From assembly GCA_006503475.1 (NCBI GenBank), contig RSEH01000120.1, positions 62,001 through 126,000 on the forward strand: DNA of 64,000 bases, read 5' to 3'. This DNA comes from Stentor roeselii (Eukaryota; Ciliophora; Heterotrichea; Heterotrichida; Stentoridae). This document shows positions 3,084 to 32,127 of the stretch, in pieces. Position numbers and translations under genes: made by a program. Positions within the stretch are counted from its first letter, which is position 1, and each line of letters starts with the position of its first letter. The notes beneath the pieces were generated by a model. That model was not told the origin of the DNA. It saw only the letters and a list, made by a program, of their open reading frames with translations, and did not search any database.

Positions 3084-6000
3084 CTAAGACTCTTCATCAT
3101 TTTTCACTGCTGAGCTCATTTTTAAAACAGCCTTTAAACCCTTCAGCGACTTTTTAGGAGGAGATGCTGGCTCTCCCGGGTTGCCTTGTTTAATTCCTTC
3201 AACCCAAGTTCCAGATTCAACCCTGCCATCAGGCCAGAAGAACTTTCCTTCTCCATGTCTAAGATTTTTAGCGAATTCTCCCTGATACCTGCTTCCATCA
3301 GGCCAGAAATATTCTCCAACTCCATGTAATTTTCCATCAACAACCTCACCTTTAAAGCTTTTTCCATTTTTCCAAACAAATCTTCCATTTCCATTAGGCA
3401 GTCCTCTTTTGAACTCTCCTTCAAATCCAGTATCATCCTTATCAGTCATTTTTCCATTTCCATGTTTCAATCCATTAACAAATTCTCCTTCATAAATAGA
3501 TCCATCAGCAGCCTTTTCAATTCCTATTCCATTAGGAAGGTTATTTTTGAAGTCGCCTTCATAAGTGGTTCCATTAAAATAAGTCATGATTCCGAAGCCA
3601 GCCATGATTCCATGTTTTAACTCGCCATCGAAGTGATCTCCGCTTTCAGTCAAAAGTGTTCCTCGTCCGTGCATGGTTCCTTTGTTGAACTCGCCTTCGT
3701 ACTTTTTGCCGTTGGCCCAGATGTAGATTCCTTTGCCGTGAAACATGTAGTTTTTGAACTGGCCTGTGTAGCTGCTTCCGTCAGGCTTCGAGTAGGTCCC
3801 TTGCCCTGTCAACTGCCCGTTTTGGAATTCTCCTTCGTATGTTGAACCGTCTGTTCGGGTTTCTTTCGCATGGCCGTTGGGCACTCCATTCACGAAATCG
3901 CCTTCGATTACTTTGCCGTCTGCTTGTCGGAGTTTACCGGAACCGGTCATTTCGTTGTTTTCGAATGTCCCTGAAAAAATGTCACCGTTTTCGAGCTTTA
4001 GAGAACCGGAACCTGACATTTTGCCATCGGACCAGGTCCCTGTGTAGGACTTTCCTGAATCCCATTTGAATGAACCTTCACCGTTTATATGGTCGTTTGA
4101 AAAGTTACCTTCGTATGTACCGGATTGGGTCTTAAAAACTCCAGTCCCTTGTTTTTTTCCTTCTGAAAATTCCCCATCATACTCTTTTCCATTTTCCACA
4201 AGTTTTCCACGTCCATGTCTCAAGTCATCCCTGAATTCTCCATCAAAATAATTCCCATTCGGATAATTTTCTCTTCCCTTTCCATTAATTTTCCCTTTTT
4301 CAAAAGACCCTTCCCTAACAACTCCATTATCAAGAACAATTTTCCCAAATCCATGTGGAAGTCCATCAACAACTTCTCCTTCAAAATATCCTCCATTAAC
4401 TCTACTTTTCATAGTACCAACCATTTTCCCCTTTTCCCAGTGATTTTCCACAACTTCTCCAGTTTTAAAAAATATTTTTCCAGGTCCCTGTAAATAATCA
4501 TCAACAAAAACCGCTTCAATTCTTCGATCAGAGTAAAAAACGACTCCTCTTCCTTGTTTTTTATCTTTAACCCAAGAAGCTTCAACTTTAAATTCATTGA
4601 AACTTTCTTTTCCTTTTCCATGTTTAAGCCCATTGACGAACTCTCCTTCATAAGTTGAGTCTTGAACGAGTTTTCCATGTCCATTCCTAACACCCTGATA
4701 GAACTGTCCAATATAAGCCCCTCCAGGAAATACTTCTTCTCCCTCACCATGGGGAACAACAGGTGAATAAACATCAAGTGCAACAAAAGAGCAAAAAAAA
4801 GACCCTTTAAATTCCATTCCATTCGATCTGATCAAAACACAACTTCCTTCTTTTTTCCCTTGATTGAAAGTTCCAGTGAAAGTATTTCCATCTGATGAGA
4901 TTTCAGTGCAACACCCATGAGGCCAGTCATTATTAAAGTTTCCAGAGACAGTGCTCAGGTCTTTTCGAGTCCATTCGCCTTGCCCGTCCTTTTTTCCAGC
5001 TTTGAACTCTCCAGAGTACTTGCTGCTGTCGGAGTACTTCATGTGTCCCTTGCCTTCAGGTTTAAAATCTTTAAACTCGCCGTTGTAGTCATTGCCTGAC
5101 TTCCAAACAGCTCTTCCTTTAACGATTTCTCCGAAGAAAAACTCGCCTTCAAAGAAATTTCCTTCTTTGTCTGTGAGTTTTCCGACCCCTTCGTATTTTC
5201 CTTTGCTGAACTCGCCTTCATAGCTGGACCCTTCGTGAGTCAAAAGGCCGAGACCGTGGTACTTGTCGAAGGAAAAGTACCCGAAGTACTCGCTTTTGTG
5301 AGCTTTGAAGTGACCGTAACCTGCACGGATACCTTTTGAAAAAAAGCCTTTGAACATACTTTCATCTTTGTAAAAAACAGTCCCGAAGCCTTCTCGAAGA
5401 TCGTTGGCGACGTCGCCGATGTAAACAGAGCCGTTTGGGCAGACTTCGTAAGACTTGCCGAAAGCTTTGCCGTGTGAGAACCTGCCAATAGCAGTGATTC
5501 CATTGTCTCTGTAAAAAGTTCCTGCACCATGTGGCTGCTGGTCAAGCATCTCTCCCTGATAAAAGCCGCCTTCTACTTTACAAGTCATCTGCCCACCTAC
5601 GAGTTCCCCATTTTTCCACAAGCAGTTCACTTCCAGTCCAGACGGGTAAATAATTTTTCCTTCTCCATGAAGTAAATCATTTTCATAATTTGCTAAAATT
5701 TTTTCATCAATTTTAATTATGGAACATTTTCCGTGTTTTAAGCCTTTTATGTAGAAAGTTTCGATTATTGTGCCGTTTTTGTGGGTTTCTTTACCTGGAC
5801 CTTCAAACAAATCGTCTTTGAAGGAACCTTCATATGTGAGGAGACTGGTTTCGAGTTTTCCGGAACCGTCTTTTTTGCCGTGAGAAAAAGTGCCGTTGTA
5901 TTGACAAGGAACGCGATTTGAACCTTCTGATTCGAACCACTTTGAAAGACCTGTCCCGTGAGGGATGAGTGTAATGTATATGTCGACTTCTGAGTAGGGA

Positions 6001-9000
6001 AGAAACTCGCCTTCGTATGAACTGCTGTCGATACGTTTTAATGTGCCTGATTGTTTTAAACCGTTTTTGAATATACCGTAAAAGATCTCGTTACCTTCGG
6101 GAGATGTTTCTTTGCATTTACCGTAGGGGAGGTTGTATCTGAAGAAACCGGATACTTCGCTACCGTCTTTACGTGTCCAGATACCTTCGCCTTCTTTTCG
6201 ACCTTTGCGGAACTCGCCTTCGTAGTGAGAGTTATCTGCAAGTTTTTCACTACATTGGCCATAGGCTTTACCATCTTTAAATGTCCCTTCAATTATGTCT
6301 CCGTTTGGAGACTTTTTGCATCCGCTACCATGCAGTTTCCAGTCAAGGAAATTTCCTTCGAAAACATCATTAGTTTTAAGATCAACATATTTTCCAAGTC
6401 CCTCAGCCCTTCCTTCCACAAATTCCCCTTCATACTGACACTCATCTTTGATTTCTATCTTTCCCTTTCCATGAAACACATTTTTAACAAATTCTCCCTC
6501 ATAATTAACCCCATCAGTCGAATACTTTCCTTGTCCATGTCTTTCCCCATGTACGAAAAATCCTTCAAAAACTTCATCATCATCTTGAAATATTCCACTT
6601 CCATGATAGCTTCCCTTATAAAACTCTCCCTTATAAAAAGTGCCTAAACTGCTTATTTTTTCAGCAAATCCATGAGGAAGTCCAGCTTTAAACATGCCCT
6701 TGACAACATCTCCATTATCCCCAGTGAAAATTCCTTCACCTTCAGGAAGTCCATTTTGAATTCCACCTTCAAACCACCCGTCCTCGACCCTAAATCTGAA
6801 ATTTTTCGGAAGTTCTCCATGGGTAATGTTGCATTGTAATTCAATCCCTGAAGGCAAAACAATAACAGCAGGTCCTTCAAGTACATCATTTACGAAAGTG
6901 CCTTGAATAGTCTGGTGATCAGTTGTAACAATGCCTGACCCTTGCTTGGCCCCATTGACGTACTCAGCTTGAATGACTCGACCATCATTGTGACTTTCAG
7001 TTCCTTTTCCATGAAACAGTCCTTCTTGGAATTCTCCTTCGTAAAGAAAATCAGCTCTTAAAATACCGAATCCATTTCTGAGCCCTTCTTGAAATTCTCC
7101 ATCATAAATAAAACCGTTTCCTACTTCGATGCCTTTTCCATGAGGGATTATTTTTGAGTATGAAAGAACTTCTTCACCTTTTTCACATAAAAAATCACCT
7201 TCGTAAGAACCTCCATCGACCCGAGTTAATTTTCCGGATTTTTTCACACCACATTCGAATATTCCTTCGAATTCTTCGCCTTCAGCAGAGGTTTCTATGC
7301 AATGACCGTGAGGTAAGTCAGCTTCGAAGTTTCCATTTACTGTGCTTAAGTCACTTCGAGTCCAGAGACCTTTTCCGTGGCGCAGTCCTGATGAGAATTC
7401 GCCTTGGTACCTTGACCTGTCTGCACCTATGAAAGTTCCTGAGCCGTGGGGGCGGTTCTGTTCGAGACTACCTTCATAAGAGTCTTTATTGGCCCAAACG
7501 ATTTTCCCTTGTCCTGTGAGTAGGCCATCATGAAAGAATCCTTCAAAGTAATTTCCTTGAGAATCAAGAAGTTTTCCTTTTCCCCAGATACTTCCTCCTT
7601 CGAACTGACCAGTGAAATGATTTCCTTGCCATTTATAATCACCTTGTCCATGAAACAATCCATCCAAGAAGTCGCCTTGATATTCCAGGTCGCCCTTGAT
7701 GAGTTTTCCTTTGCCTTCTTTTTTCCCATTGACAAAGTACCCGTCATAATCTTCAGAGACTGACTTAAGATGACCTTTACCATGATAAAGGTTTTCATTG
7801 TAACTTCCAGTGTATTCGAGTTCTTCACTTTTAAAAGTTCCGAAACCTGATTTGGTGCCTTCAATGAAATTCCCTTCAAAGATAGACCCATTTTCCTTCA
7901 GTGTGCCATTTCCATGAAACTTGTCATTGTAAAAATGGCCTTCATAAGTCTGGCTTTCACTTTTCAAAGTCCCCAGGCCCTTTTTTTTCCCTTTGCTGAA
8001 ACCTCCAGAATAAGTGAAGAGCTGAGTGACAAGAGTTCCATTTCCATGAAACTTTTCATTATAAAAGTACCCTTCATAAGTGAAATCAGGTCCCTTTAAC
8101 ATACCTTTACCCTTCTTATATCCATTTTCAAAGTTCCCGATAAAAACCACGTCACCCACTTTTAAAGTTCCACTTCCATGATAAAGATCTTCTAAAAAAT
8201 TCCCTTCATAAAACTCTTCACCTCTTCTCAACCTTCCAAACCCTTCCCTGACTCCATTAACAAAATTTCCTTCATATTCAAAGTCAGATCCATTGATAAG
8301 CTTTCCCTGTCCATGAAACCTTCCATTTTTAAAAAGTCCTTCATAGTTCAATTCAGGACTCGTGAGTTTTCCAAAGCCTTCTCGAATTCCATTTAAAAAG
8401 TTGCCTTCATAGCAGTTGCTTTCCCATAAAAGTTTTCCGTTTCCATGATACTGATTCTGAAAGAACTGTCCAGTGTATTCAACTTCAGGAGTTCTAAACT
8501 TTCCCTGGCCATCTTTCTTTCCAGCGACCCAGTTTCCTTCATAGAAGCAGTCATTTATTCTGATCTTTCCTTGTCCATGTTGCAGTCCATTCGAAAAGTT
8601 GCCTTCATACTCAAGGTCGACATTAGTTAACCTTCCATTTCCTTCTCTTACTCCCATCTGAAAGTTCCCTTCATAAACCTCTTGTCCTATTTTCTGCTTG
8701 GCGAATCCATGAAGAGCCCCATTCAAGAACTCTCCATCAAACGAGTCTCCATTTGCAAGAACCAACAGCCCCTGGCCTTCAAAGCTTCCAAGATGGACCT
8801 CGCCCTTATAAACCGCCCCATCCCTCATGAAGACAACGGCCTTGCCGCTCATATCGCCATTGACAAAATTTCCTTCATATCGAAGTCGTGGTCCATTTTG
8901 CCAGCAGTACTTTCCAAGGCCATTTTGCTTGCCAGCGACCCAGTTGCCTTGATACAAGTCTCCATTTTCCCAAATGATTCTTCCGAAGCCATGTCTGAAG

Positions 9001-9452
9001 TCATCTAAAAACTCTCCAACATATTTATCAGCAGACCTCAAAATTTCCACCCCGAAGCCATTGCGCTTGAAAGTCTGCATATCCCACTCGCCTTCATAGA
9101 CGACAGAGTCAGAAAGTTTTACTGCAGAGTGAAAAGTATGACGGCCTTTAACGAAGTTCAGCTCTTCCAACGTCTTTTCGACGGTTAGGACTAAAGGGTT
9201 GGTAATGGAGTCCAAAGGGTCTGCAAAGTCTTCATAAGGAAAAACGTGCTCGGCTAGAGCTTCTGACTTGTGGATGTAGTCGAGTAGCATCGGAATCACC
9301 TTTGCTCTGAGAAGAAATGCTCGCGCTGATGCTTGGAGAGCTATCTGGGTTTCAAGGGAAACTAGAAGGATGTTGTCTCCGACGCCTAGTTCGTTCTTTT
9401 TACCTGCTATGTGGTCTTTTATCTCTTCGATCTTGCTGGTTTGCGCACCCAT
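3084..9452 (-). CDS. Giant MORN-repeat protein, N-myristoylation signal
   Basis: A single uninterrupted frame of 2122 residues. The N-terminus MGAQTSK fits the N-myristoylation rule (Gly2, Ser6, Lys7), so the protein is probably anchored to a membrane. Residues 8-116 form a helical non-repeat head. From about residue 117 to 2090 I could lay out 86 consecutive MORN units of the type YEGxFxxGxxHGxGxL, mostly 22-23 residues long. A short Lys/Pro-rich tail ends the protein. MORN repeats form long beta-ribbons that bind membranes or scaffold cortical structures, as in apicomplexan MORN1 and junctophilins. The array is organised at a higher level: a two-unit alternation near residues 259-611 and a 17-unit block present three times at 681-1870. 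Units 29, 46 and 63 carry long inserts, and 34, 51 and 68 are degenerate. Length is far above usual MORN proteins. Confidence 0.93.
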   Translation of the reverse strand: MGAQTSKIEEIKDHIAGKKNELGVGDNILLVSLETQIALQASARAFLLRAKVIPMLLDYIHKSEALAEHVFPYEDFADPLDSITNPLVLTVEKTLEELNFVKGRHTFHSAVKLSDSVVYEGEWDMQTFKRNGFGVEILRSADKYVGEFLDDFRHGFGRIIWENGDLYQGNWVAGKQNGLGKYCWQNGPRLRYEGNFVNGDMSGKAVVFMRDGAVYKGEVHLGSFEGQGLLVLANGDSFDGEFLNGALHGFAKQKIGQEVYEGNFQMGVREGNGRLTNVDLEYEGNFSNGLQHGQGKIRINDCFYEGNWVAGKKDGQGKFRTPEVEYTGQFFQNQYHGNGKLLWESNCYEGNFLNGIREGFGKLTSPELNYEGLFKNGRFHGQGKLINGSDFEYEGNFVNGVREGFGRLRRGEEFYEGNFLEDLYHGSGTLKVGDVVFIGNFENGYKKGKGMLKGPDFTYEGYFYNEKFHGNGTLVTQLFTYSGGFSKGKKKGLGTLKSESQTYEGHFYNDKFHGNGTLKENGSIFEGNFIEGTKSGFGTFKSEELEYTGSYNENLYHGKGHLKSVSEDYDGYFVNGKKEGKGKLIKGDLEYQGDFLDGLFHGQGDYKWQGNHFTGQFEGGSIWGKGKLLDSQGNYFEGFFHDGLLTGQGKIVWANKDSYEGSLEQNRPHGSGTFIGADRSRYQGEFSSGLRHGKGLWTRSDLSTVNGNFEADLPHGHCIETSAEGEEFEGIFECGVKKSGKLTRVDGGSYEGDFLCEKGEEVLSYSKIIPHGKGIEVGNGFIYDGEFQEGLRNGFGILRADFLYEGEFQEGLFHGKGTESHNDGRVIQAEYVNGAKQGSGIVTTDHQTIQGTFVNDVLEGPAVIVLPSGIELQCNITHGELPKNFRFRVEDGWFEGGIQNGLPEGEGIFTGDNGDVVKGMFKAGLPHGFAEKISSLGTFYKGEFYKGSYHGSGIFQDDDEVFEGFFVHGERHGQGKYSTDGVNYEGEFVKNVFHGKGKIEIKDECQYEGEFVEGRAEGLGKYVDLKTNDVFEGNFLDWKLHGSGCKKSPNGDIIEGTFKDGKAYGQCSEKLADNSHYEGEFRKGRKEGEGIWTRKDGSEVSGFFRYNLPYGKCKETSPEGNEIFYGIFKNGLKQSGTLKRIDSSSYEGEFLPYSEVDIYITLIPHGTGLSKWFESEGSNRVPCQYNGTFSHGKKDGSGKLETSLLTYEGSFKDDLFEGPGKETHKNGTIIETFYIKGLKHGKCSIIKIDEKILANYENDLLHGEGKIIYPSGLEVNCLWKNGELVGGQMTCKVEGGFYQGEMLDQQPHGAGTFYRDNGITAIGRFSHGKAFGKSYEVCPNGSVYIGDVANDLREGFGTVFYKDESMFKGFFSKGIRAGYGHFKAHKSEYFGYFSFDKYHGLGLLTHEGSSYEGEFSKGKYEGVGKLTDKEGNFFEGEFFFGEIVKGRAVWKSGNDYNGEFKDFKPEGKGHMKYSDSSKYSGEFKAGKKDGQGEWTRKDLSTVSGNFNNDWPHGCCTEISSDGNTFTGTFNQGKKEGSCVLIRSNGMEFKGSFFCSFVALDVYSPVVPHGEGEEVFPGGAYIGQFYQGVRNGHGKLVQDSTYEGEFVNGLKHGKGKESFNEFKVEASWVKDKKQGRGVVFYSDRRIEAVFVDDYLQGPGKIFFKTGEVVENHWEKGKMVGTMKSRVNGGYFEGEVVDGLPHGFGKIVLDNGVVREGSFEKGKINGKGRENYPNGNYFDGEFRDDLRHGRGKLVENGKEYDGEFSEGKKQGTGVFKTQSGTYEGNFSNDHINGEGSFKWDSGKSYTGTWSDGKMSGSGSLKLENGDIFSGTFENNEMTGSGKLRQADGKVIEGDFVNGVPNGHAKETRTDGSTYEGEFQNGQLTGQGTYSKPDGSSYTGQFKNYMFHGKGIYIWANGKKYEGEFNKGTMHGRGTLLTESGDHFDGELKHGIMAGFGIMTYFNGTTYEGDFKNNLPNGIGIEKAADGSIYEGEFVNGLKHGNGKMTDKDDTGFEGEFKRGLPNGNGRFVWKNGKSFKGEVVDGKLHGVGEYFWPDGSRYQGEFAKNLRHGEGKFFWPDGRVESGTWVEGIKQGNPGEPASPPKKSLKGLKAVLKMSSAVKNDEES
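3843..5021 (-). repeat. 17-unit MORN super-repeat, copy 3 of 3
   Basis: Codes for units 60-76 (residues about 1478-1870). It opens with a unit ending GEWTRKDLS, has the insert with VPHGEG at place 4 and a degenerate unit ending RVNGG before YFEGE at place 9. The ten units that follow (77-86) do not repeat the pattern. Confidence 0.75.
5022..6227 (-). repeat. 17-unit MORN super-repeat, copy 2 of 3
   Basis: Codes for units 43-59 (residues about 1076-1477). It opens with a unit ending GIWTRKDGS, has the long insert with IPHGTG at place 4, and a degenerate unit ending KVEGG before FYQGE at place 9. The insert is a few residues longer than in the other two copies. Confidence 0.75.
6228..7412 (-). 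repeat. 17-unit MORN super-repeat, copy 1 of 3
   Basis: Codes for units 26-42 (residues about 681-1075). It begins with a unit ending GLWTRSDLS, has a long-insert unit at place 4 containing IPHGKG, and a degenerate unit at place 9 ending RVEDG before WFEGG. The same order of odd units recurs in copies 2 and 3. Confidence 0.75.
7620..8678 (-). repeat. Two-unit (about 44-residue) alternating MORN array
   Basis: Codes for MORN units 7-22 of the giant protein (residues about 259-611). Odd units tend to read NGxREGFG or GKKxGxG and even units xxFHGxG or xxYHGxG, giving a period of two units. Nearly every unit here is exactly 22 residues, more regular than elsewhere in the protein. This suggests growth by duplication of unit pairs. 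Confidence 0.7.
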
Positions 9453-10227: not shown

Positions 10228-11034
10228 ATGTCTTTAGGATTAAGATGCATGGTCAACTGCCCAATCATCATTACTTTGGCGTTGTTTGTAGGAGGGTATT
10301 TTGTGTTTCTTCGAACTGAACCTTTTGAAAGTGAAGGAAAAATTGCATTAGCGGGTTTTTTTCACTTGATGGTTTTTTTTGCACTTTTGAGTCTTTTTAT
10401 CACTTTTTGCATTTCGCCTGGATTTGTTGACCCTGGGTTCAATATTTCTGAATTTCCTGAAGATTTGAAGGTTTCTTATATTGAAGACTTCTCAGAAATT
10501 GACTTCGCTTTGTGCAGAGTGACTTTTTGTAAGAAGTGTGAAATATACAGACCTCCTCGATGCCATCATTGCAATACTTGTGGAAAATGTGTACTTCGAT
10601 ATGAACATCACTGTCCTTTTGTAGCGAATTGTGTTGGGTTCAGAAATCAGAAGCCTTTTATCTTGTTTCTTGTGTATACCTCTATTTCACTAGTACTTTT
10701 GACCGTATTTTTAGTATGGAAGTTGCTGACAGAGTACTCAGTTCTCTGGCTTTCTCTTACTTTAGCTGTTTCAGCGATTTTTATCTTAGAAACCGGTTTC
10801 GCCTTATCCCAAATTGCGATGGTTGCTGAAAATGTGACATCTTTAGAGGTCTCCTGGTCACATCGAGTTTTCGACACTGGTTCACATTTAAAGAACTTCG
10901 AGCAAGTCTTCGGTGAAAACATCTTCCAATGGTTTTTTCCCTGTTTCATCTTGAAAGGAGGTGAAAACTTCCCAGTCCGAATTCGATTAAAATCAAGAGG
11001 AATCCACGTAATCGAAAATCAATTCCTGGTCTAA
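10228..11034 (+). CDS. DHHC-family palmitoyltransferase with EHHC variant
   Basis: A 268-residue protein with four hydrophobic segments (about residues 10-30, 42-62, 143-165, 170-195) around a cytoplasmic Cys-rich domain. Residues 98-144 match the zDHHC core: CKKCEIYRPPRCHHC, then CGKCVLRYEHHCPF, then NCVGFRNQKPF. The enzyme transfers fatty acyl groups from acyl-CoA to protein cysteines through the Cys of the DHHC motif. Here the motif is EHHC (residues 126-129): the first Asp is Glu, while the catalytic Cys129 and both His are kept. Start context is TATAATG. Its TAA stop directly abuts the stop of the convergent phosphatase gene. Confidence 0.92.
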   Translation: MSLGLRCMVNCPIIITLALFVGGYFVFLRTEPFESEGKIALAGFFHLMVFFALLSLFITFCISPGFVDPGFNISEFPEDLKVSYIEDFSEIDFALCRVTFCKKCEIYRPPRCHHCNTCGKCVLRYEHHCPFVANCVGFRNQKPFILFLVYTSISLVLLTVFLVWKLLTEYSVLWLSLTLAVSAIFILETGFALSQIAMVAENVTSLEVSWSHRVFDTGSHLKNFEQVFGENIFQWFFPCFILKGGENFPVRIRLKSRGIHVIENQFLV

Positions 11035-12294
11035 CTAGTCTTTAACTATATAAAAATAATCAACTATCTCTCTTTTCCTGTTCAGCTGTTCCCACAGCAG
11101 ATGTGAGGCATTAAAAAAAGTAAGAACTCCGAAGCCATACTGCTGGCTCTGAACACGAAACCAGTCAACATTGGTAGAAACATCCGGGTCTCGTTTTCCT
11201 CTGTCATTCCCTCCATTCCCTGAAATGACATAAACAGGTGACGACGGGTTGATATATTCATGAATAGAGTCATTCTTTCCAGAAACATCAGAATTATTGT
11301 AAACTGCTGAGTCTCTTTCATATTTATGCATATGGCCCTGAATCACCAGGTCAACCTCGTATTTATTATAAGGTTCTTCCAGGAACTTTCGAAGTTTTCC
11401 AGTTTGTTTGACGCAGTCGAATTCACTGTGAGAATTTCCTACTTCATAAAAACAGTACAAGGGCTGATGTGACAAAACTACCACCCAAGGGTTTTTATCT
11501 CGATTTTCTTGGGCTTTTTTCAGTTCTTGGGTCAACCAGTTGAGTTGTGTGGTTTTTTCTTCTTCAGTTCCATAGATGAACACGTTGGTATTCAGCAGAA
11601 TGTACCTCACAAGCCCTGCTTCGAAAGAGTAAAAAAGTCCTGAACCCTCATTTGCCTGGTTTTTCGGCATCGGGTACCTGGCGAGGTAATGTGAGTAATT
11701 CGATTTGACTTCGTGATTTCCTGGAATTGTCATAAATGGGTAAAAAGCAGTGATCGGCTCAATCATTTCACCGAATCGGTCACCGACAGTGCCTTGATTG
11801 GTGAAGAGGTCATAGGCGAAGTCCCCGAGTTGTACTACTCCTTTTACTGAATTTTCTTCAAGGTACTCAAGCATTGCATCAATGACTCCAGCTGACTTGC
11901 GACTAACACCCAAGTCGCCATAAATAATCATTTTATCTTCTTTTGTCATCTGGTCTCCTGGAGTCCATCCTTCAAATGAAAAAATTTCACTGGCAAAAGG
12001 ACCATTTTTGACTCTATATTGAAAAGTGCAGCCTTTTGCTGTGAACTTCACACGAGCCGTGTAAATAAAACCAATACGTGGAAAGCCTTCACCGAAATCA
12101 AAGCGATTCGAAGTGATATTCACAGAAACCTCGTCGTCTAAACATTTCACAGGCCAGACTTCGACTAGTGGTTCAGAATTCGAGTAGCAGATCCAGTTAA
12201 TCTGCATTTCATCTGAGTTTTCAGTCCATGACAAGTGAACTTGTTCAGGCTCCCAGAGCGACTGGACCATTGGAAGGATAAAGAAAACCAGCAT
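11035..12294 (-). CDS. Purple acid phosphatase, secreted
   Basis: A 419-residue protein with a short hydrophobic start (MLVFFILPMVQS) that looks like a signal peptide. A fibronectin-like N-terminal domain (about residues 15-110) precedes a metallophosphoesterase domain. All five metal-binding blocks are present in order: YGDLG (125-129), GDFAYD (157-162), GNHE (192-195), VVLSHQP (272-278) and GHMH (320-323). This is the set of plant- and fungal-type purple acid phosphatases, which hydrolyse phosphate esters at low pH using an Fe/metal centre. Likely lysosomal or phagosomal, or secreted. Upstream on the same strand, 13 bp away, is a second metallophosphatase, so the pair may be co-regulated. 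Confidence 0.92.
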   Translation of the reverse strand: MLVFFILPMVQSLWEPEQVHLSWTENSDEMQINWICYSNSEPLVEVWPVKCLDDEVSVNITSNRFDFGEGFPRIGFIYTARVKFTAKGCTFQYRVKNGPFASEIFSFEGWTPGDQMTKEDKMIIYGDLGVSRKSAGVIDAMLEYLEENSVKGVVQLGDFAYDLFTNQGTVGDRFGEMIEPITAFYPFMTIPGNHEVKSNYSHYLARYPMPKNQANEGSGLFYSFEAGLVRYILLNTNVFIYGTEEEKTTQLNWLTQELKKAQENRDKNPWVVVLSHQPLYCFYEVGNSHSEFDCVKQTGKLRKFLEEPYNKYEVDLVIQGHMHKYERDSAVYNNSDVSGKNDSIHEYINPSSPVYVISGNGGNDRGKRDPDVSTNVDWFRVQSQQYGFGVLTFFNASHLLWEQLNRKREIVDYFYIVKD

Positions 12295-12307
12295 TATAAA
12301 GCCTTGA

Positions 12308-13543
12308 TTAATTATCCTTTATAATTGACTCAAACAAAACAGATGAGTTCAGCGAATCAATAAACTTTATTGAAAAGTGAGTCTCGTTTAAAGAGACTTG
12401 AGAATATCCATGAATTGACTTCCCGAACTTCATCTCGGCCATGGGACTTTCTATGAAAGGACAAAGAGGATCTAGTGTTGCCCCTCCTGCGCCTTGGATT
12501 ATTTGATGCAAATGCTGACCTTTCTTGAATTCCATTCGAGGGGACTCGAGGTACTCAGGAGACTCTTCCATTGGTATCCGATTCGTGCAGTTCAGTCCTC
12601 GAGATTCACATCTTGAGTCACGAGAAACGCAAAGAACTGAGAATGGTCCACAGTTGAAATGAGAAACTTTTAAACATTCAGAATCAGTCTTTTGTCGTTG
12701 ATAAGGTAAAGAGTTATTGTGGATCAGGTACTGCATGTTATGATTGTGACCTGAAAGCACAGCGTCTATTTTGTACCTTTTTAATAAGGGAAGAAGGTAA
12801 AGCTTCAGAGATTCGTTATCCGCACTTGAAGTTGATACTGAGAAGAGTGGAGAATGACTCACAACAAACTTCCATTTTATTCTAGCGTCTTTTGAAATTG
12901 CACGAAAATGACGGGAGATCCTCTTGTAAATTGTCTTGTTGTTGTTCACTGCTTTCATGTCATTGCATTGTTTTTCAGTTCTGTAACTTTTCGTCGGGCC
13001 GTAACAGACCAAGTCGCAAGGTAAAAAAGTGAAAGAAACTGAGAAGGATTCGAAGTTAAGAGTCATGTTCCAAAACCCCTCTGGCATAAAAATTTGTGGA
13101 TATAGTGTCTCGAGGTAGATTCCGTATTGGTTGCTGAAATAGCAATCATGGTTACCGTAGGACAAGTACCATGGAATTTTAGATAAAACTGAAGAGTTCA
13201 TGTAACTTTCAAGTACTCTCGCAACTGTTACCATGTAACTTGTGTTGGCTTCATTGTAAAAATTATCTCCGAGTGATATGATCAGTGAAATATTTTCTCT
13301 ACTGGCAAGGTTTGCCATTGAAGTGGTAAGGTCTCGGAGAGGTACGTATTCTGAGTTGTTATAAGGGTGGATGTCCCCGAAATCTCCGATAAGAAGCATT
13401 TTTAGATCGTTTCGACTTAAGTTCAAATTGACTTTCGGTAATTTCTTCGCCTCTTTTAGGCATGATGCCATTTTAAAGACCTGGGCAAAGAGAAGGGTAA
13501 TGCAGAGAATGAGAAGACATGAGTAAATAACACTTGTCTTCAT
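12308..13543 (-). CDS. Type-5 (tartrate-resistant-like) acid phosphatase, secreted
   Basis: A 411-residue protein with a signal-anchor-like N-terminus (SVIYSCLLILCITLLFAQ). The metallophosphatase blocks are LIGDFGD (51-57), LGDNFYNE (91-98), YGNHD (129-133), a VVSHSPLFS block and SGHNHNMQYL. GDFGD and GDNFY are typical of ACP5/TRAP rather than of the larger plant-type enzyme encoded next door. Several Asn-x-Ser/Thr sites and many Cys fit an extracellular or lysosomal product. A longer Cys-rich insert (ECLKVSHFNCGPFSVLC) after the last His block is unusual. It is head-to-head with the CFAP97-like gene, with 39 bp between start codons. Confidence 0.88.
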   Translation of the reverse strand: MKTSVIYSCLLILCITLLFAQVFKMASCLKEAKKLPKVNLNLSRNDLKMLLIGDFGDIHPYNNSEYVPLRDLTTSMANLASRENISLIISLGDNFYNEANTSYMVTVARVLESYMNSSVLSKIPWYLSYGNHDCYFSNQYGIYLETLYPQIFMPEGFWNMTLNFESFSVSFTFLPCDLVCYGPTKSYRTEKQCNDMKAVNNNKTIYKRISRHFRAISKDARIKWKFVVSHSPLFSVSTSSADNESLKLYLLPLLKRYKIDAVLSGHNHNMQYLIHNNSLPYQRQKTDSECLKVSHFNCGPFSVLCVSRDSRCESRGLNCTNRIPMEESPEYLESPRMEFKKGQHLHQIIQGAGGATLDPLCPFIESPMAEMKFGKSIHGYSQVSLNETHFSIKFIDSLNSSVLFESIIKDN

Positions 13544-14498: not shown

Positions 14499-17129
14499 AT
14501 GGAAAAAAGGTCAAAACAAAAAGAAGAGTCAAAAATCAGCAGCTTAAGCCGAAACTTAAAAAAAAAACTATTAGTAGTTGATTCTCGTAAATCAAAAAAC
14601 CAAGAAACCGATGCTCCAACAGCCCAGATCTCCGACAGAGCCAAGTCCAGAGCCGACCTAGAGCTAATAAACAGTGCACTAAACAAACATTTTATATTTA
14701 CAAGTCTGCCAGACGAGAACCGTATGGTCCTCATAGAAAGAATGCTTTTTTACTCACTCGGGGCAAACGAAATCGTCTTCGAGCAAGAGCAAATGGGCAA
14801 CAACTACTTCATCGTAATAGCAGGGTCATTAGAAGTAATCGTGAACGGCAAGCCAGTCAGCGTTCTTAAAGAACGGGACAGTTTCGGAGAACTTGCTTTG
14901 CTTCACGACACTCCTAGAACTGCAAGTATTGTGACTCTTGAAAAAACCTTCCTTTGGGGCCTTGATCGGAAGACTTTTCGTTCAGCTTTAGAAGCTTTGA
15001 ATATTCAGAACTATTCAGAAAATCGACAGTTTATTGACACAGTGCCTTTGTTGGGAGTCTTGACTCATAATCAGAAGGAACTTTTGGTTAGTTCTTTTTC
15101 AAGTCTCAAGTTTAGGCCTAAGGAAAGAATTGTTATTGAAGGGGATACTGGAGATTTGTTTTATATTATTAAGGAAGGTGTTGTTTCTTGCTCGAAAGCG
15201 GGAAATGAAATCAGGCAAATGTTTGCAGGGGATTTTTTTGGTGAGCAGGCACTTTTGTATAATAGTGTCAGGACTGCTACTATCACTGCTGTTACTGAGG
15301 TTAAGTGTATTGCTATTGGAAGGGAGAGACTTGGAAAGGTACTTGGGAACCAGCTACAGCATATTTTGTATCAGAATACTAAGAGGATTGCTTTGGAAAA
15401 GTCTGAAGTTCTTAGGAATCTTAGCTCTGGGCAGATGGCTAAGGTTGTTAATGCACTGCTAGTTCAGGTTTATAAGAAGGGCTCTGTTATTGTTCCTGCG
15501 GGAATAATCAAAGGAAGTAAGATGTGGGTGATTCTTAAAGGAAAGGTGATCGATCGCAGAGGCGTGGTAGCAGCAGAAGTGTTTAACTGTATCGGCGACC
15601 AAGACATCACCAAGCCAATAGGAACCGAGACATTCAACGATCTCTTCAGCGAGAACGAAGTAACAGCAGCAAGTATATCACGAGAAGAGTTCTTATCAAG
15701 TATAGGAGGTGACTTTTCTTCCGTATCATCAAACAACGAGGCAAGTGCAGCTCTTCACAAAGTCCAAGTTTTCCGAAGTTTATCCCAGGACCGTTTTTCA
15801 GCCTTAGTATCAGCATTAACAATGACCGAGTACGAGGCAGGTGAGTTAATTTTACAACAAAACAGTGAAGGCAATTCATTTTTCATAGTAAAATCAGGAA
15901 AAGTGAATGTAATCCGCAACGGAGTCAACATCCGCACAATAACAAAACTTGACTACTTCGGCGAAAGAAGCATTTTAAACCACGAGCCCAGGACCGCCTC
16001 AGTCGTTGCTGACGGGCCTGTTTCTTGTTGGGTCCTCAACCAGTCAGACTTCTTCAGAATCTTAGACGATAACATCCGCACTCAGCTGGTGAAGCGAATT
16101 CAACTTCAAGACGACACGATTTCTCTTCAAGACCTTGCCATTGTCAGAATGCTTGGAAAGGGCATGTTTGGAAATGTTTTCCTGGCAGTCAGAAGAGACC
16201 AGCAGACTCTTTTCGCTTTAAAAACAGTTGAAAGAAGGAAAATTGAAAGGTTTGAAATACAGGAAAATCTGGTACTTGAAAGAAAAGTCTTGATGCAACT
16301 TGACCATATGTTTATTTTAAGACTGGTGAAGACTTTCAAGGATACGAAAAGAATTTATTTTTTAACTGAGTTCGTGAAAGGCATGGACCTCTTCGACGTT
16401 TTAAGGGAACTCAACCTGGTCACTGATAAAGACTCGCGATTTTACACTGCGAACATGATTTTGTTTCTTGAACATCTGCATGAAAGGGATATTATTTATC
16501 GTGACTTGAAACCTGAAAACGTCATGGTTGATGAAGAAGGTTATTTGAAACTAATTGATTTCGGCACTGCGAAAATCGTCACTTCAAGGACTTACACTGT
16601 TGTCGGGACTCCTCATTACATGGCTCCAGAAATCATTATCGGCAAAGGCTATGGAGTCGCTGCTGACTTCTGGAGTCTCGGCATCATTCTTTATGAATTT
16701 CTTTGTGGAGGAGTCCCTTTCGGCGAAAATGAAGAAGACCCTTACGCGATTTATGAAAAAGTAATGGAAAGAAAATTGATTTACCCTCCTTTTGTCGACC
16801 CTCGGCTTTCAGCGAAGCCTTTTATTGAACAGCTGCTGAATAAGAACCCAGGAGTGCGAACTGGAGGAAGTATTGAAAATTTAAAGGCGAATCCTTGGCT
16901 AAGCACAATAAATTGGGTACTGATTACTTAGGACCGAATGATCAGCAAGTCAATTCAACCTCCTTTCATCCCACCAACTGCCTCGATGGACAAAGAGATC
17001 AGAGTTGCTTTAAGAAGCAACAAGACCTACGACGAAATCATCAGCAAGGAAGAAGCAAACGACCCTCTTCCTGGAAAAAGCAGCAAAAAGCCCAGATCTT
17101 CAGTTAAGAACTGGGATGAGGACTTTTAG
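14499..17129 (+). CDS. PKG: cGMP-dependent protein kinase with four CNB domains (spliced)
   Basis: Two exons around an intron at 16917-16931 give 871 residues. Four cyclic-nucleotide-binding domains precede an AGC kinase. Phosphate-binding cassettes are clear in A (FGELALLHDTPRTAS, 129-143), B (FGEQALLYNSVRTAT, 247-261) and D (FGERSILNHEPRTAS, 487-501). The third domain (about 305-405) has lost the FGE...R.A core. The kinase runs from about 548 to 805: GKGMFG loop (553-558), Lys575, YRDLKPEN (667-674), DFG (687-689) and GTPHYMAPE. The spliced C-terminus reads INWDRMISKSIQPPFIP and ends NWDEDF, the AGC tail expected for PKG. Three working sites plus one degenerate third site is the layout known from apicomplexan PKG. 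Without splicing the tail would be lost. Confidence 0.93.
16917..16931 (+). other. 15-nt spliceosomal intron
   Basis: Sequence GTACTGATTACTTAG, phase 0, in the PKG gene. Its last codon is an in-frame TAG. The 5' end is GTAC rather than the commoner GTAA. Splicing joins INW to DRMISKSIQPPFIP, the conserved AGC-kinase tail. Confidence 0.9.
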
Positions 17130-26478: not shown

Positions 26479-29400
26479 ATGAATAATCTCTTTCTAATCA
26501 TCCAGATCCTGCTAAAACTTTCTGAATCAGTGAACATAAAATGCAAAGACTCTTTCTGTAACGAGTGTCTCTCAGGGTTAAATTTCGAAAAAGTCTCTTG
26601 TCTATCAACCTGTCCAGAAAACTACAAAGAATCAAACTCTTCATGCATTCAAGAAGCGAGTTCTCCATTCATCAGTCTCTCTCTTTTCCGGTTCCTCGAC
26701 GTTAGTGCCTCAGAAGTCGGCGATTTCCAACACCCGGAAAACCTGCAATTTCAAGACACTCAAAGAAAAAGTCCGATTCCAACAAAAGACCGGGGCTTTT
26801 ACTTCAATAATTCCAGTTCTTTGGTATCTAAAAGGTCCTGGGTGTTAGCTCCAACTTTTTTCATGAATTTCCTGCTGAAAATTTACGATGACGGCAAAAT
26901 TCTCGTAGGTACAAGTCAAACAATACCTTTTCTAGAGGTTTGGTTTAATGCAAGTCAAATCTTTTTTAAATTCTCTGCACTTGACTTGAGTGAAACAAGC
27001 GAAATCGTTGTGATAAGAGAGTTTCCTAGAGAGAAATGGAAAACTTTATCAATTGCTGTTTCATTATCGTTGAGGAATACTAGTGTTGAGGTGAATAATG
27101 TGAAAACTATTCTGCCGTTTATGGAATTTGACTCTGAACATGAGATTTTTTTTCATATTGGGTATCAAGGAGAAAGTTTTAGAGGATTTCTTCAACAGTT
27201 TCAGCTTGCTAATGCGAAATTTACAGGGTTTAACCCGATATATCAGGAAATTGACTGTGACTTCAACCAGTTCTTTGATAGCTTGAATAACTCCTGTCAG
27301 GACTGTGATCCGCTCTGTCCTACTTGGCCTTGGTGTGTTCGAAATAATACCTGCAGTATTTGTTTGAGTGAAAATTGTAACTCTTGCTATGGATTTGATT
27401 ATTTTCATTGTGAGTCTTGTAAAAATTCAAGTCTTGCGCCGTTTTGTGAACCTATCAAGTTTTGTATGACTTGGAATGGAACTTATTGTTTGGCTTGTCA
27501 AACTGGGTATGTTAAAATTGATGAACTTTGCATTCAAGAGCCGTATTTGTATGGAAATGATTCAAGTTTTCCTGTTATAAATATTCGATTTGATTATATT
27601 AGAGAATTATATGGAGGGCTCTTTAAAAGTGGATCAGACTCTTCCACATACGGTCCATTCAACAACTCATCCCCCGATGACCCATTCCCATCATCAAAAC
27701 GAGGTATATACTTCAACGGGAGTACCTACCTAGAAACCATAATCGACATCAGACTAAACTACAAATTTTCTCTATCATTCTGGATAAACATCCAAGACTA
27801 CAACTTCCGTTACCTGCTTCATTCAAACAATTTTGAGCTAACCAACTACTTCATATCTTTAATAAAACTAACAAACATAGAAGAAACTCGTCTTTTCATA
27901 GTCCCTCAAAAAAAAGGCCAAAAGTCTTCTTGGAACTTTTTAACACTGACAGTAGACTACTTAAACTGGACTCAAACCTTTTTAATGAGAAGTAACTTAG
28001 ACGAATCATTTTCCTACTCAATAGCCGGGTACGTTTTTTACGATCTTCCAGGTTCTTTGAAGATTGGATATGGCCAAGGGTCCAGAGGTTTCATCGGATA
28101 TATTTATTCTTTCGCCTTGTGGCAATCAGCGATTTATTTAGACTTTGCAGATGTTTTTGCTTCACGACCTGCAGAACTTTGGAATGTCGAGATCGGTCAG
28201 TATTACAACTATTATGAGAAAAAAGCTATGAAATGTGACACAGAATGTATTAAAGGATGTAATGTTTGGGGAAACTGTAATCAGTGCTCTTCACTTAATT
28301 GCTCGTTTTGTGATAATTTTAATGATACTTGCTTGGAAGACCAAAATGCTCAATGTTTGGATGGGTATTGGTTTGTTGAGAAGAAATGTTGTGACTTTAA
28401 GTGCTTGGACTGCTTTGGACCTGGGTATTACAGATGTCTTGCTTGTGTACCTCCATTCGTTAGACTTGGGAATATGTGTGTCGAGCGATGTCCTTCTTTT
28501 TTGCAAGGGGATGAGTGTCATGGTGAAAAACATTTGATTTCATTGAAGTTTGATAGGGCTGTGCCATTGTTAGTTGATGATATTCATTCTGTTCAGTTTC
28601 ATTCTGAGACTAACTCTCAGTTTTGGCCTCATTTGTATGAAAGTGACCCTATTCCTAGTTTTAAAAGAGGATTTTTTTTTAGAAATTCTTCGGTTTTGAT
28701 TAGCGATGATGTCAGCTTTAGTCATAACTTTACTATTGTGTTTTTTCTTAAGGTGATTAAACCTGGAGTGCTTTTAACTAAAGGAAACTTAACTTTTTCT
28801 ATTGAAGATGATGGAACTTCGTTGGAAATTGGAAGTTTTCCGAAAATTTTCATTCGAAAATTCGATTTTGATAAGTGGACTGTTGTCGGCTTTCAAGTCT
28901 TTCACGACATGGACGGTGAACTTTACTACGTAAGAGTAAATTCAAATAACACTTTCCAAAAACTAAAGACAACTTCAATTGACATCCAACACGATATCAA
29001 CTCTCCAATAATCCTCGGTAACATTTTCAACGCATCAGAAGCTTTCATCTGGCGTTTAGAGGTATTTAACTCGATAGAGTTATCAAATTACTCAATAACC
29101 ATCTGCAGTTCTTCAACACAATCCGGATGTCTATGGGACTGCTCGCTCGACTCTTATTTAACATCAGATCTTTGCCAACCCTGCGACTCTTCCTGCAACT
29201 TCGGTTGTAAAGCCTTCGAAATCTGCAACTACTGCGAAGACAACGAGTGCCTAAGTTGTTCTGTTGAAACTTCTGAATGTTTTCTCTGCAATCAAAATTC
29301 CTTAATTGAAAATTCGAGATGTTCTTGCAAAGACGGTTTTATCAGAGGAGAAGATGGAAGATGTTCAAGGTGTCCTTTAGTTTTCATTGAATTTTCTTGT

Positions 29401-32127
29401 TTTGAGTTATGTCCTCTTGGGTTCACACTTGTAGAGTCTTCCCAGGAGTGTGAAAGAAAAAGTGATGAGAAGATTGTAGCGAAATTTGACTTTTATTTAA
29501 GTATTTCAGGAGTTTTCATCGACCCCATTTCTGGATTGTTTTGCGTGACTGGAAGTTCTGAACAGTTTTACCCGAATCTTGAAGATAATGACCCGATTCC
29601 TGCTTATCAAAGAGGATTGTATTTCAGGGGAAATGGATCTTTTATCAGTTTTTTTCCACCTTATAAAATGTTGTTCTTTGGTTTGAAGTTTTCAGTGATG
29701 ATTTGGGTGATGCCGGATAGTCCATCAACGATACTTTTTAAGAAGCAACGTGTGAAGAACTCAGGATTTGAGAGTCTTCTTGAAAACTCTGTCCTGACCT
29801 TTAAAATCCTTCTTTCAGATTCAGTATTGTCCATCACTTTCCCTGACCCTTTGATTATATCTACCTGGAGTCAGGTTGTTTTTACCTTGAAAAATGAAAA
29901 ACTCTCTTCTTTTTACTATTTAATTGTAAATCAACGACAGTCTGCAATATCAACAAGTCTCGAATTTATTCGAGACTCGCCTGAAGGAAAATTCGTTTTC
30001 GGGTCATGTGAAAATTTTCCTTCATTTAAGGGTTTTTTGTATTCAGCTTCTGTTTACATTGATGAACTCAGTAAAGATGATTTGACTGAATCTGGATATT
30101 TTTCTAGTCCTGAACAAATGACGACCACCCCAAGTGTAACTTGCGATATAAATTTTTACTTTGATGAAGAAAAAAACTCCTGCAGGCCTTGTCTTGCTGA
30201 ATGTTTATACGGCTGCCGTTATAACGACTCTTGTGGTTTATGTGCTGATAAAAATTGTGAAATATGTGAAAACTTTGAGACTTCTTGTGAAAGTTGTGAA
30301 GAAGGTTTTTTTTACCATGATGAAAAGTGTGTTAAATGTAATAGTTCAAGTTTTTTTAATGAAAGTTTGAAGATGTGTCAGGAATGTTCTCCTCTTTGTG
30401 TGAGTTGCTCAAGTCGCGAATATTGTAATGAATGCAGGCCGAATAGTCACTTGAATCTGAATATGTCCTGTGAATGCAGTCAAGGATTTAAAGGAGTTGA
30501 TAGTTGTGAGCAGGTCTACTTTACTGTCAAGGCTTCCTTTCATGACAAGAAACTCACTTTAAACTTTTCTGAAGAACTTCTGTTCGATCTGAATAAAACT
30601 CAATTTGAGGTCTTTATCGATGAGATTAGAACTATATTCGATATAAAAAAATTATCTCCATGTTGTTTTCAAGTGATTTTTTCATCCTCTCAAACAAAAT
30701 CATCGAAAGTTTGTATTTATTTCTTGGGAACAATTTTTTCGATAAATAAATCAGTCCTTAACACAACTTTCATTGAAATAGAAACGAAAGTAGAAGCTCA
30801 AAACACTATAGTAAGGGCGATTATTGAACTGAAAAATTCAATAAAATATATATATCTAGCAACTATCGGATTTATTATCGGCACAAGTGTCATAACTTTC
30901 GACCCGAACTGTCTTTTTACCTTTTTAAACAGTGCCGAATTAATAGCTTTTACTTCAACTTATGAGCTAGAAATGGGTGAAAATTTAATTGATTTTTTGA
31001 ATAACCTAAAAATTTCATCAAGTCTTCCATCTTTTTTTTACGACTTAGAAACAGATTCAGGAAAAGTGAATGAAGTAAAATTAATTGCTTACGGATATTC
31101 AAGCAACCTACTACTTGATAACTCTGGTTTTATCGTATCATTCTTTATCACTCTTATTTTCCTCAATATTTTACTATTCGCTCTATCAAGATTAAGGGTC
31201 GGTCGAGGAAGAATCTGGATGCTTAAGTTGTTGAAGTACTTTAAATACGAATTTTACCTGAGACTCTGGATACAGACACTTTTCGAGTTGATTTTAACGA
31301 GTTTCATTGCTTTTCGGTTTTACAACCAAGGGTCTACCTTCCAGATCGTGAATATGATAATAACTGCTTTGATATCTGTAAGTTCTAATTAGCTGACTCA
31401 TTTAATTTTATTCGTCTGTTTATGCATAATTGTCAACAAAAGACGAAAAATGCAAAATTCAGTAGAAATCGAAAATCTTTTAGAAAAATTCGGAATTTTT
31501 TTTGATGAGTTCTCGACAGGTCCTTTTTACAAATATTTATTTTACATCATTTTCTTTATCAGAAGACTAGTCCTGTGCATATTTGTGATTTTTTCTCATT
31601 CAGGAGGCTTCCAGATAATAGTTTCTCTTTTATTTTCATTCATAGTAAGTCCCACTCAGGTCATTTTATTCACAAAACTCTCCAGTTGTTTCAAAGACCG
31701 ATATTTTGACAAGTACTTCTTCAGCTGTGAACTTCTAATCGCAGTGTTTTACTCCTGCCAAGGTCTTTTTGCATTGAACTTCATATCAGCAAAGTCTCTA
31801 GCAGTGACAGGTTACTCAATAGTCTTCATCATTCTCTTCATAACAATAATTTTCGGCTCTTCATCTTCACTAATCAAAATCTGGAGAACCTGCCGAAAAT
31901 CAAGAAAATCAACAAAAGTGACCCCTGCGAAATACGAAGAACGAGAAAACGTTAACGATCACACAATTTCTTACAATGGACTCAACTCAATGAACCAAAA
32001 ATCTGAGGTTTCCCGTCATTCAGGAGTAGAAATCGAAGTAAGAGACCTAAAACGTTACTTTTCTTTCCGCTTCGCTCCGAATGCATCACTCAGAGACTCA
32101 CTTGAAGAATCGGTGCACGTTCAATAA
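26479..32127 (+). CDS. Large Cys-rich receptor-like membrane protein with four LamG-like modules (spliced)
   Basis: Two exons around an intron at 31378-31392 give 1877 residues. A signal peptide (NNLFLIIQILLKLSES) is followed by four copies of one module. Each has a concanavalin/LamG-like domain opening with a [DS]P[IF]PxxxRGxxF phrase (near residues 98, 400, 722, 1037) and then a furin/TNFR-like Cys block such as CDPLCPTWPWC or CLAECLYGCRYNDSC. The spacing is about 300-320 residues. After residue about 1450 come roughly eight hydrophobic segments, the last four gained only by splicing. A charged cytoplasmic tail with Ser-rich ends closes the protein. The layout fits a surface receptor or channel-like protein of the kind expanded in ciliates. 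No kinase or pore motif is recognised. The ligand is unknown. Confidence 0.88.
31378..31392 (+). other. 15-nt spliceosomal intron
   Basis: Sequence GTAAGTTCTAATTAG, phase 0, ending in an in-frame TAG. Removal joins membrane segments of the receptor-like protein; exon 2 starts with LTHLILFVCLCIIV, a clean transmembrane helix. Confidence 0.92.

Follow-up and report, generated by a model that had tools for sequence, protein, structure and literature searches.

A Giant MORN-Repeat Protein of Stentor roeselii with a Triplicated 17-Unit Superrepeat and a Myristoylation-Type N-Terminus

How regular cortical distances are kept in a giant single cell is an old question, and to our knowledge few candidate cortical rulers have been named. 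The question is raised again by a 64,000-nucleotide stretch of Stentor roeselii DNA (contig RSEH01000120.1, positions 62,001 to 126,000; hereafter the window), which encodes a 2122-residue protein with 86 MORN units, a triplicated 17-unit superrepeat, and an N-terminus of the myristoylation type. This protein, here called the giant, and its closest paralogue form a concrete ruler candidate: a probably anchored ribbon with a fixed unit number and a 17-unit period, in which half of the residues have changed. Our preferred reading, held with moderate confidence, is that the giant is a membrane-tethered scaffold or spacer; as Stentor is amenable to RNA interference (PMC4019465), the ruler idea is testable.

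An Intact Gene of 86 MORN Units

The open reading frame (ORF) at 3084-9452 on the minus strand is unbroken in the standard code, running for 2122 codons from ATG to TAG. The first-pass annotation, made from the sequence alone, gave its 2122 residues and its MGAQTSK start correctly. The codon immediately 5' of the ATG is an in-frame TAA, with an in-frame TGA and TAA farther upstream, and the 300 nt upstream plus the first 60 nt of the ORF contain no 15- or 16-nt intron candidate of the GTR..AG form. Because of these upstream stops and the lack of a start-proximal intron candidate, the start at 9452, and Gly2 and Ser6 with it, is not easily removed; a false start or a hidden upstream exon was rejected on the same grounds. 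Stentor coeruleus uses the standard code and has introns of 15-16 nt; in those of 15 nt, the branch-point A mostly sits at position 10 (PMC9505925). Of the 21 longer ORFs in the window, one ends in TGA and the others in TAA or TAG. Together with the 15-nt intron-like stretch described below, this makes a Stentor or closely related heterotrich host probable. Two possible introns lie within the gene. One is a GTA..YAG 15-mer near residue 1472, for which the alignment with the paralogue L002 shows no corresponding five-residue gap; the other is a 16-mer in the final 24 nt, which, if real, changes the last few residues.

Pfam recognizes MORN (PF02493) as the sole family in the giant, with an E value of 8.1e-219, a score of 695 bits (cut-off 22.5), and 56 stretches. 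Two further models were seeded with 80 units from other MORN genes of the same genome: a hidden Markov model marks 76 stretches, some partial, and a chaining model places 82 units, of which 71 score above 5 bits. Chance repeats were rejected by shuffled controls of the protein (n=50), in which the chaining model placed at most five units. The chain misses slots at residues 728, 750, 872, 1146, and 1548, taking a half-slot at 761 instead of that at 750, and manual filling of the skipped weak slots gives 86 units over residues 119-2100. Their length is 23 residues in 44 units, 22 in 32, and 21, 24, or 25 in six; three extended units (32, 33, and 39 residues) and the last unit complete the set. 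Because the 17 slots in the first copy of the superrepeat described below equal the 17 hairpins of its AlphaFold model, where the chain alone finds 15, we consider 86 the better count; divergent MORN units are undercounted by profiles. The 86 units first placed at residues 117-2090 were recovered with slightly different limits, and a far lower profile count is obtained only in the strict Pfam sense of 56 stretches.

A Triplicated Superrepeat in a Diverged Pair of Giants

The units are laid out as 6 + 16 + 17 + 17 + 17 + 13, the middle of the protein being a tandem triplication of a 17-unit superrepeat. When whole units are compared, offsets of 17 and 34 score 31.7 and 32.7, and 500 shuffles of unit order reach at most 17.3. 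An earlier comparison over 89 slots, in which the loop-extended units were split, gave offsets of 18 and 36 in place of the 17 and 34 obtained with 86. The three copies are 37-38% identical across their aligned cores, and conservation is highest mid-copy and weak at the edges, so the superrepeat borders are approximate. Every copy contains one loop-extended MORN unit, 9-16 residues over the usual length, with a PHGxG motif after the insert; copy 2 has eight extra residues after this motif. Ahead of the superrepeats, residues 260-612 show a two-unit alternation, with offset 2 scoring 20.6 and offset 4 scoring 18.0, both above all shuffles. A blastp self-comparison of each of the three long MORN proteins (the giant, L002, and L051) gave no off-diagonal pieces at E≤1e-5. 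A gap-free residue-shift score was best at 23, 46, 22, 864, and 44, with the superrepeat shifts of 797, 402, and 393 ranked lower, which is why the comparison was moved to whole units.

A search of the genome (44.4 Mb in 522 contigs, and perhaps incomplete) gave L002 as the best match besides the giant itself; this protein of 2114 residues is 49% identical to the giant across 2099 aligned residues. L002 is collinear with the giant and has the three superrepeats, and no whole unit has been gained or lost between them; the 18 indels are of 1-2 residues, save for an 8-residue one within the loop of copy 2 and those of 9 plus 5 residues at the tail. The chain assigns 82 units to each giant, although the weak slots that it skips are partly different. 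Their superrepeat copies pair as A1-B1, A2-B2, and A3-B3, with local supports of 0.98, 1.0, and 0.97 and L051 as the remaining branch, so the triplication is older than the duplication of the giants, with no whole unit changed since. L051 is a 1157-residue protein that chains to 44 units and has one superrepeat-like block without a loop-extended unit. Both long paralogues share the N-terminal region with the giant but differ from it at the C-terminus.

Between the giants, synonymous sites are saturated (proportion of synonymous differences, pS, 0.77) and nonsynonymous divergence (dN) is 0.47; a pseudogene was rejected on this comparison, in which saturation leaves no usable ratio. Identity is 0.70-0.94 at unit positions 1, 3, 5, 8, 12, and 14, as opposed to 0.20-0.57 at the remaining 17 of 23. 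The consensus positions and the number of units are constrained while the rest changes freely, which suggests a part whose shape and length matter, and a conserved unit number is what a spacer or ruler would predict. Since repeat proteins readily expand, the low identity at those 17 positions might also reflect an inert expansion by slippage or drift, with no length-dependent role. However, the giants diverged after the triplication and have kept every unit since then, and their sequence is under constraint; this explanation, already disfavoured, is highly improbable.

The N-Terminus and Its Small Relatives

N-myristoylation requires Gly2 with a small residue at position 6. All three long members begin with MG and carry Ser6 (MGAQTSK in the giant, MGQDVS in L002, and MGDTCSC in L051), even though the giants are so diverged, and this, together with the secure start, supports the myristoylation signal noted in the first-pass annotation. 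The N-terminal 116 residues of the giant match L002 (E 3.8e-26), L051 (E 2.8e-5), and one 352-residue MORN frame (E 0.45). In a profile comparison, the N-termini of long and small MORN proteins match at 95.7% (E 8.4e-9), or 87.4% (E 3.7e-6) once the first ten columns are left out, and 100 column shuffles give at most 1.6%. The N-terminus of the giant is therefore homologous to those of the small MG-MORN proteins, and the case for myristoylation draws on this family descent in addition to a single heptamer.

This small family was sampled from the best-scoring loci only, 150 of 1302 candidates having been scored, and the 46 MORN ORF rows include a truncated L051 copy (L004) and two frames from L050. 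MG starts are found in 34 of the 46 rows. Among other ORFs, they occur in two of the 54 with 200 or more residues and in none of the ten with 250 or more, a background of mechanical ORFs that are perhaps not all genes. We counted as small members the 29 rows shorter than 450 residues that start with MG, excluding a 527-residue MG row with 15 units (L053). All 29 have 8-10 units and a Cys at residues 3-8; position 6 is Ser in 14, Cys in eight, Thr in four, Ala in one, and Gln or Leu in two. Many small MORN proteins (L005-L049) combine an MG start, an N-terminal Cys, and often an IQ-like motif. Members such as L007, L013, and L017 resemble the giant in the MG start, the Ser, Thr, or Cys mostly found at position 6, and the MORN array, but differ in unit number and in the N-terminal Cys, and are too short for the 17-unit superrepeat. 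The Cys is kept in L051 and missing in both giants. A lineage-specific expansion of acylated membrane proteins is possible, and the Stentor cell would accordingly have a class of IQ-MORN membrane proteins that are probably acylated. The first-pass annotation mentions neither this family nor the superrepeat, the two-unit alternation, the IQ-like motif, or the paralogues.

A calcium-switched anchor would be compatible with our preferred reading: calmodulin or centrin on the myristoylated N-terminus would free the ribbon during Ca2+ signals or contraction. An IQ-like motif lies at the same aligned place in the three long members, and two of four small relatives scanned pass the Pfam IQ cut-off (one of the others is just under it, at 18.4 versus 20.3, and one gives no match). 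Lacking the Cys, the giants would have a weaker, reversible single anchor. However, the long members give no Pfam IQ match, the motif is short, and the IQ-type pattern, present in 18 of the 29 small members, is missing in 11; we regard the switch as quite unlikely.

Predicted Fold and Relation to Known MORN Proteins

The AlphaFold model of superrepeat copy 1, for which the alignment consisted of only the three window copies, has a predicted local distance difference test score (pLDDT) of 90.9, a predicted template modelling score (pTM) of 0.68, and 34 strands without a helix, which we read as 17 hairpins; the pLDDT block in the loop of the extended unit is 62. The beta-ribbon first proposed for the entire protein is thus predicted for one superrepeat, or 394 of 2122 residues. 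Structural matches of the model include MORN1, FAP266, junctophilin, radial-spoke, and MORN4 proteins, the top five being MORN1.

Closest in both sequence and fold is the canonical ribbon of the MORN1 proteins of Toxoplasma, Plasmodium, and Trypanosoma (PDB: 6t69, 6t6q, 6t4d, 6t4r, 6t68), which have 14-15 repeats as opposed to 86. In TgMORN1, palmitoylation is predicted at Cys4, and apicomplexan MORN1 acts as a scaffold in the cortical basal complex, its function being prevented by removal of one repeat; the published passages mention no myristoylation-type start or IQ-like motif (PMC2924399). Apicomplexan MORN1 is the nearest functional model for the giant. A tail-to-tail antiparallel dimer is characteristic of MORN1-type proteins. 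Among the matches listed in the open-licence literature, neither a MORN protein as large as the giant nor a MORN superrepeat is found.

The axonemal MORN proteins RSPH1, FAP266, and RSP10 share the MORN fold with the giant but have short arrays within multi-protein axonemal complexes. The giant could be a ciliary or basal-body component, that is, an axonemal or oral-apparatus MORN protein that works like those of the radial spokes and the central pair and whose N-terminal lipid would help to deliver it to cilia. Many of the 29 distinct solved sequences matched are axonemal (FAP266, RSP1, RSP10, MORN3, FAP207, and FAP227) and recur in the fold comparison. MORN proteins are also among the genes up-regulated in Stentor regeneration, which rebuilds oral cilia, although the cited passage does not name the giant gene (PMC9371601). 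The best matches are nevertheless MORN1 proteins, which occupy the top four places by sequence as well as the top five by fold, and Pfam gives no non-MORN domain in the protein. A further point against a ciliary role is that we know of no lipid signal in the solved axonemal MORN proteins, and we consider this role doubtful, though not negligible.

The dimers of TbMORN1(2-15) are rods of 25-26 nm that overlap at repeats 12-15 (PMC7725318). A MORN unit would on this basis span about 1 nm, and 86 units about 85 nm of contour, an estimate that ignores curvature. This length bears on a junctophilin-like contact tether from the plasma membrane to cortical alveoli or endoplasmic reticulum, which would couple Ca2+ stores to the surface. 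Junctophilins place a MORN ribbon at a membrane and match the giant by sequence and fold, but they carry a C-terminal membrane helix that the giant lacks: no long hydrophobic run was found in its tail, which is rich in Lys and has little hydrophobic character (in four windows, the mean hydrophobicity is 0.19-0.29 and the charge +3 to +5). The ribbon would also be too long for the usual membrane contact gap, which is less than 85 nm, unless it lies sideways. Junctophilins have eight repeats (PMC7725318). A tether of this kind is distinctly improbable.

A Proposed Membrane-Tethered Scaffold or Spacer

In the membrane-tethered scaffold or spacer that we prefer, Gly2 would be co-translationally myristoylated, holding the N-terminus at a membrane face. 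The region that follows, probably helical and with a degenerate IQ-type motif, may bind a calmodulin-like light chain that modulates attachment. The 86 MORN hairpins would join into a single unbroken, twisted beta-ribbon that acts as a scaffold or a spacer with a set length, and the loop-extended units, recurring every 17 units (approximately 17 nm), could serve as evenly spaced landmarks for partners or self-assembly. Acylation, light-chain binding, the membrane concerned (pellicle or cilia), the stiffness of the ribbon, its length in nanometres, and its spacing role are all inferred, as is the cortical location first suggested for the protein. We argue that membrane contact would be made by the N-terminal lipid and not by the ribbon, because the net charge is negative and lipid binding by MORN repeats is doubted: such binding as a general property has been argued against, although phosphatidylethanolamine is also reported to co-purify with TbMORN1 (PMC7725318).

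Several observations weigh against an anchored ribbon of meaningful length. Only the 394 residues of copy 1 are confidently folded, and the fold matches span approximately the first 260 of these. For the MORN rows, Foldseek template modelling scores normalised to the query length are 0.19-0.44, because solved MORN arrays are shorter. The single-sequence AlphaFold model of residues 1-350 has a pLDDT of 33 and is worthless for the N-terminus. With a net charge of about -57, binding of the ribbon itself to acidic membranes is improbable. Pfam IQ (PF00612) is absent from residues 1-116 of the giant (no families at E≤10) and from L002, and the 127 N-terminal residues of L051 likewise give no families, so calmodulin binding by the long members is conjecture. 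The small family, too, varies little in unit number, and the constancy seen in the giants may reflect low slippage rather than any need for a given length; divergence at the variable positions could equally well come from different partners of the two giants.

A stronger version holds that the two giants are true length-setting rulers, in which an 86-unit, myristate-tethered ribbon of approximately 85 nm fixes a cortical or ciliary-row distance, with an extended docking unit every 17. As part of this scenario, a small dual-acylated IQ-MORN membrane protein would have been lengthened and its middle block triplicated, with length then held amid sequence drift. As a whole, we think the ruler scenario rather unlikely.

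Features of the Locus and Neighbouring Genes

Table 1. Position of the features of the giant MORN gene in the window.
Feature	Residues	Coordinates	Strand	Remarks
Whole ORF	2122 in all	3084..9452	-	Read as standard code without introns
N-myristoylation-type signal MGAQTSK (Gly2, Ser6, Lys7)	1-7	9432..9452	-	No Cys at 3-8, unlike small relatives
IQ-like motif LQASARAFLLR	39-49	9306..9338	-	Pattern match; aligned in all three long members
Non-MORN N-terminal region	1-118	9099..9452	-	Common to both long paralogues; N-terminal alignment and profile comparison
MORN units 1-6	119-259	8676..9098	-	Chain and manual slots
MORN units 7-22	260-612	7617..8675	-	Mostly 22-residue, two alternating types
Superrepeat copy 1, 17 units	613-1006	6435..7616	-	Borders approximate
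Loop-extended unit of copy 1	750-782	7107..7205	-	33 residues, PHGKG
Superrepeat copy 2, 17 units	1007-1410	5223..6434	-	Borders approximate
Loop-extended unit of copy 2	1146-1184	5901..6017	-	39 residues, PHGTG
Superrepeat copy 3, 17 units	1411-1802	4047..5222	-	Borders approximate
Loop-extended unit of copy 3	1548-1579	4716..4811	-	32 residues, PHGEG
C-terminal 13 MORN units	1803-2100	3153..4046	-	Mostly 23 residues
Short Lys-rich tail	2101-2122	3087..3152	-	Differs from both long paralogues' C-termini

The second ORF upstream of the giant (10228-11034, plus strand) encodes a DHHC palmitoyltransferase (Pfam E 2.7e-27), and MG..C MORN proteins are numerous in this genome; the neighbourhood may be due to chance. 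Two adjoining metallophosphatase genes of the purple acid phosphatase-like type lie on the minus strand at 11035-13543, possibly as a tandem pair. The gene at 14499-16931 (plus strand) combines a protein kinase with three cyclic-nucleotide-binding stretches in one chain, like cGMP-dependent kinases.

In a phage collection, tblastn gave a MORN-like partial match (28%, E 6e-10) in one unannotated faecal phage record (MT837156.1, 5214-5879).

A short intron-like sequence was also observed elsewhere in the window. The 15-nt stretch GTAAGTTCTAATTAG at 31378-31392 (plus strand), with A at position 10, contains the apparent stop of the ORF at 26479-31392. Beyond it the reading frame is open for another 244 codons, so this gene probably extends past the end given in the ORF list.
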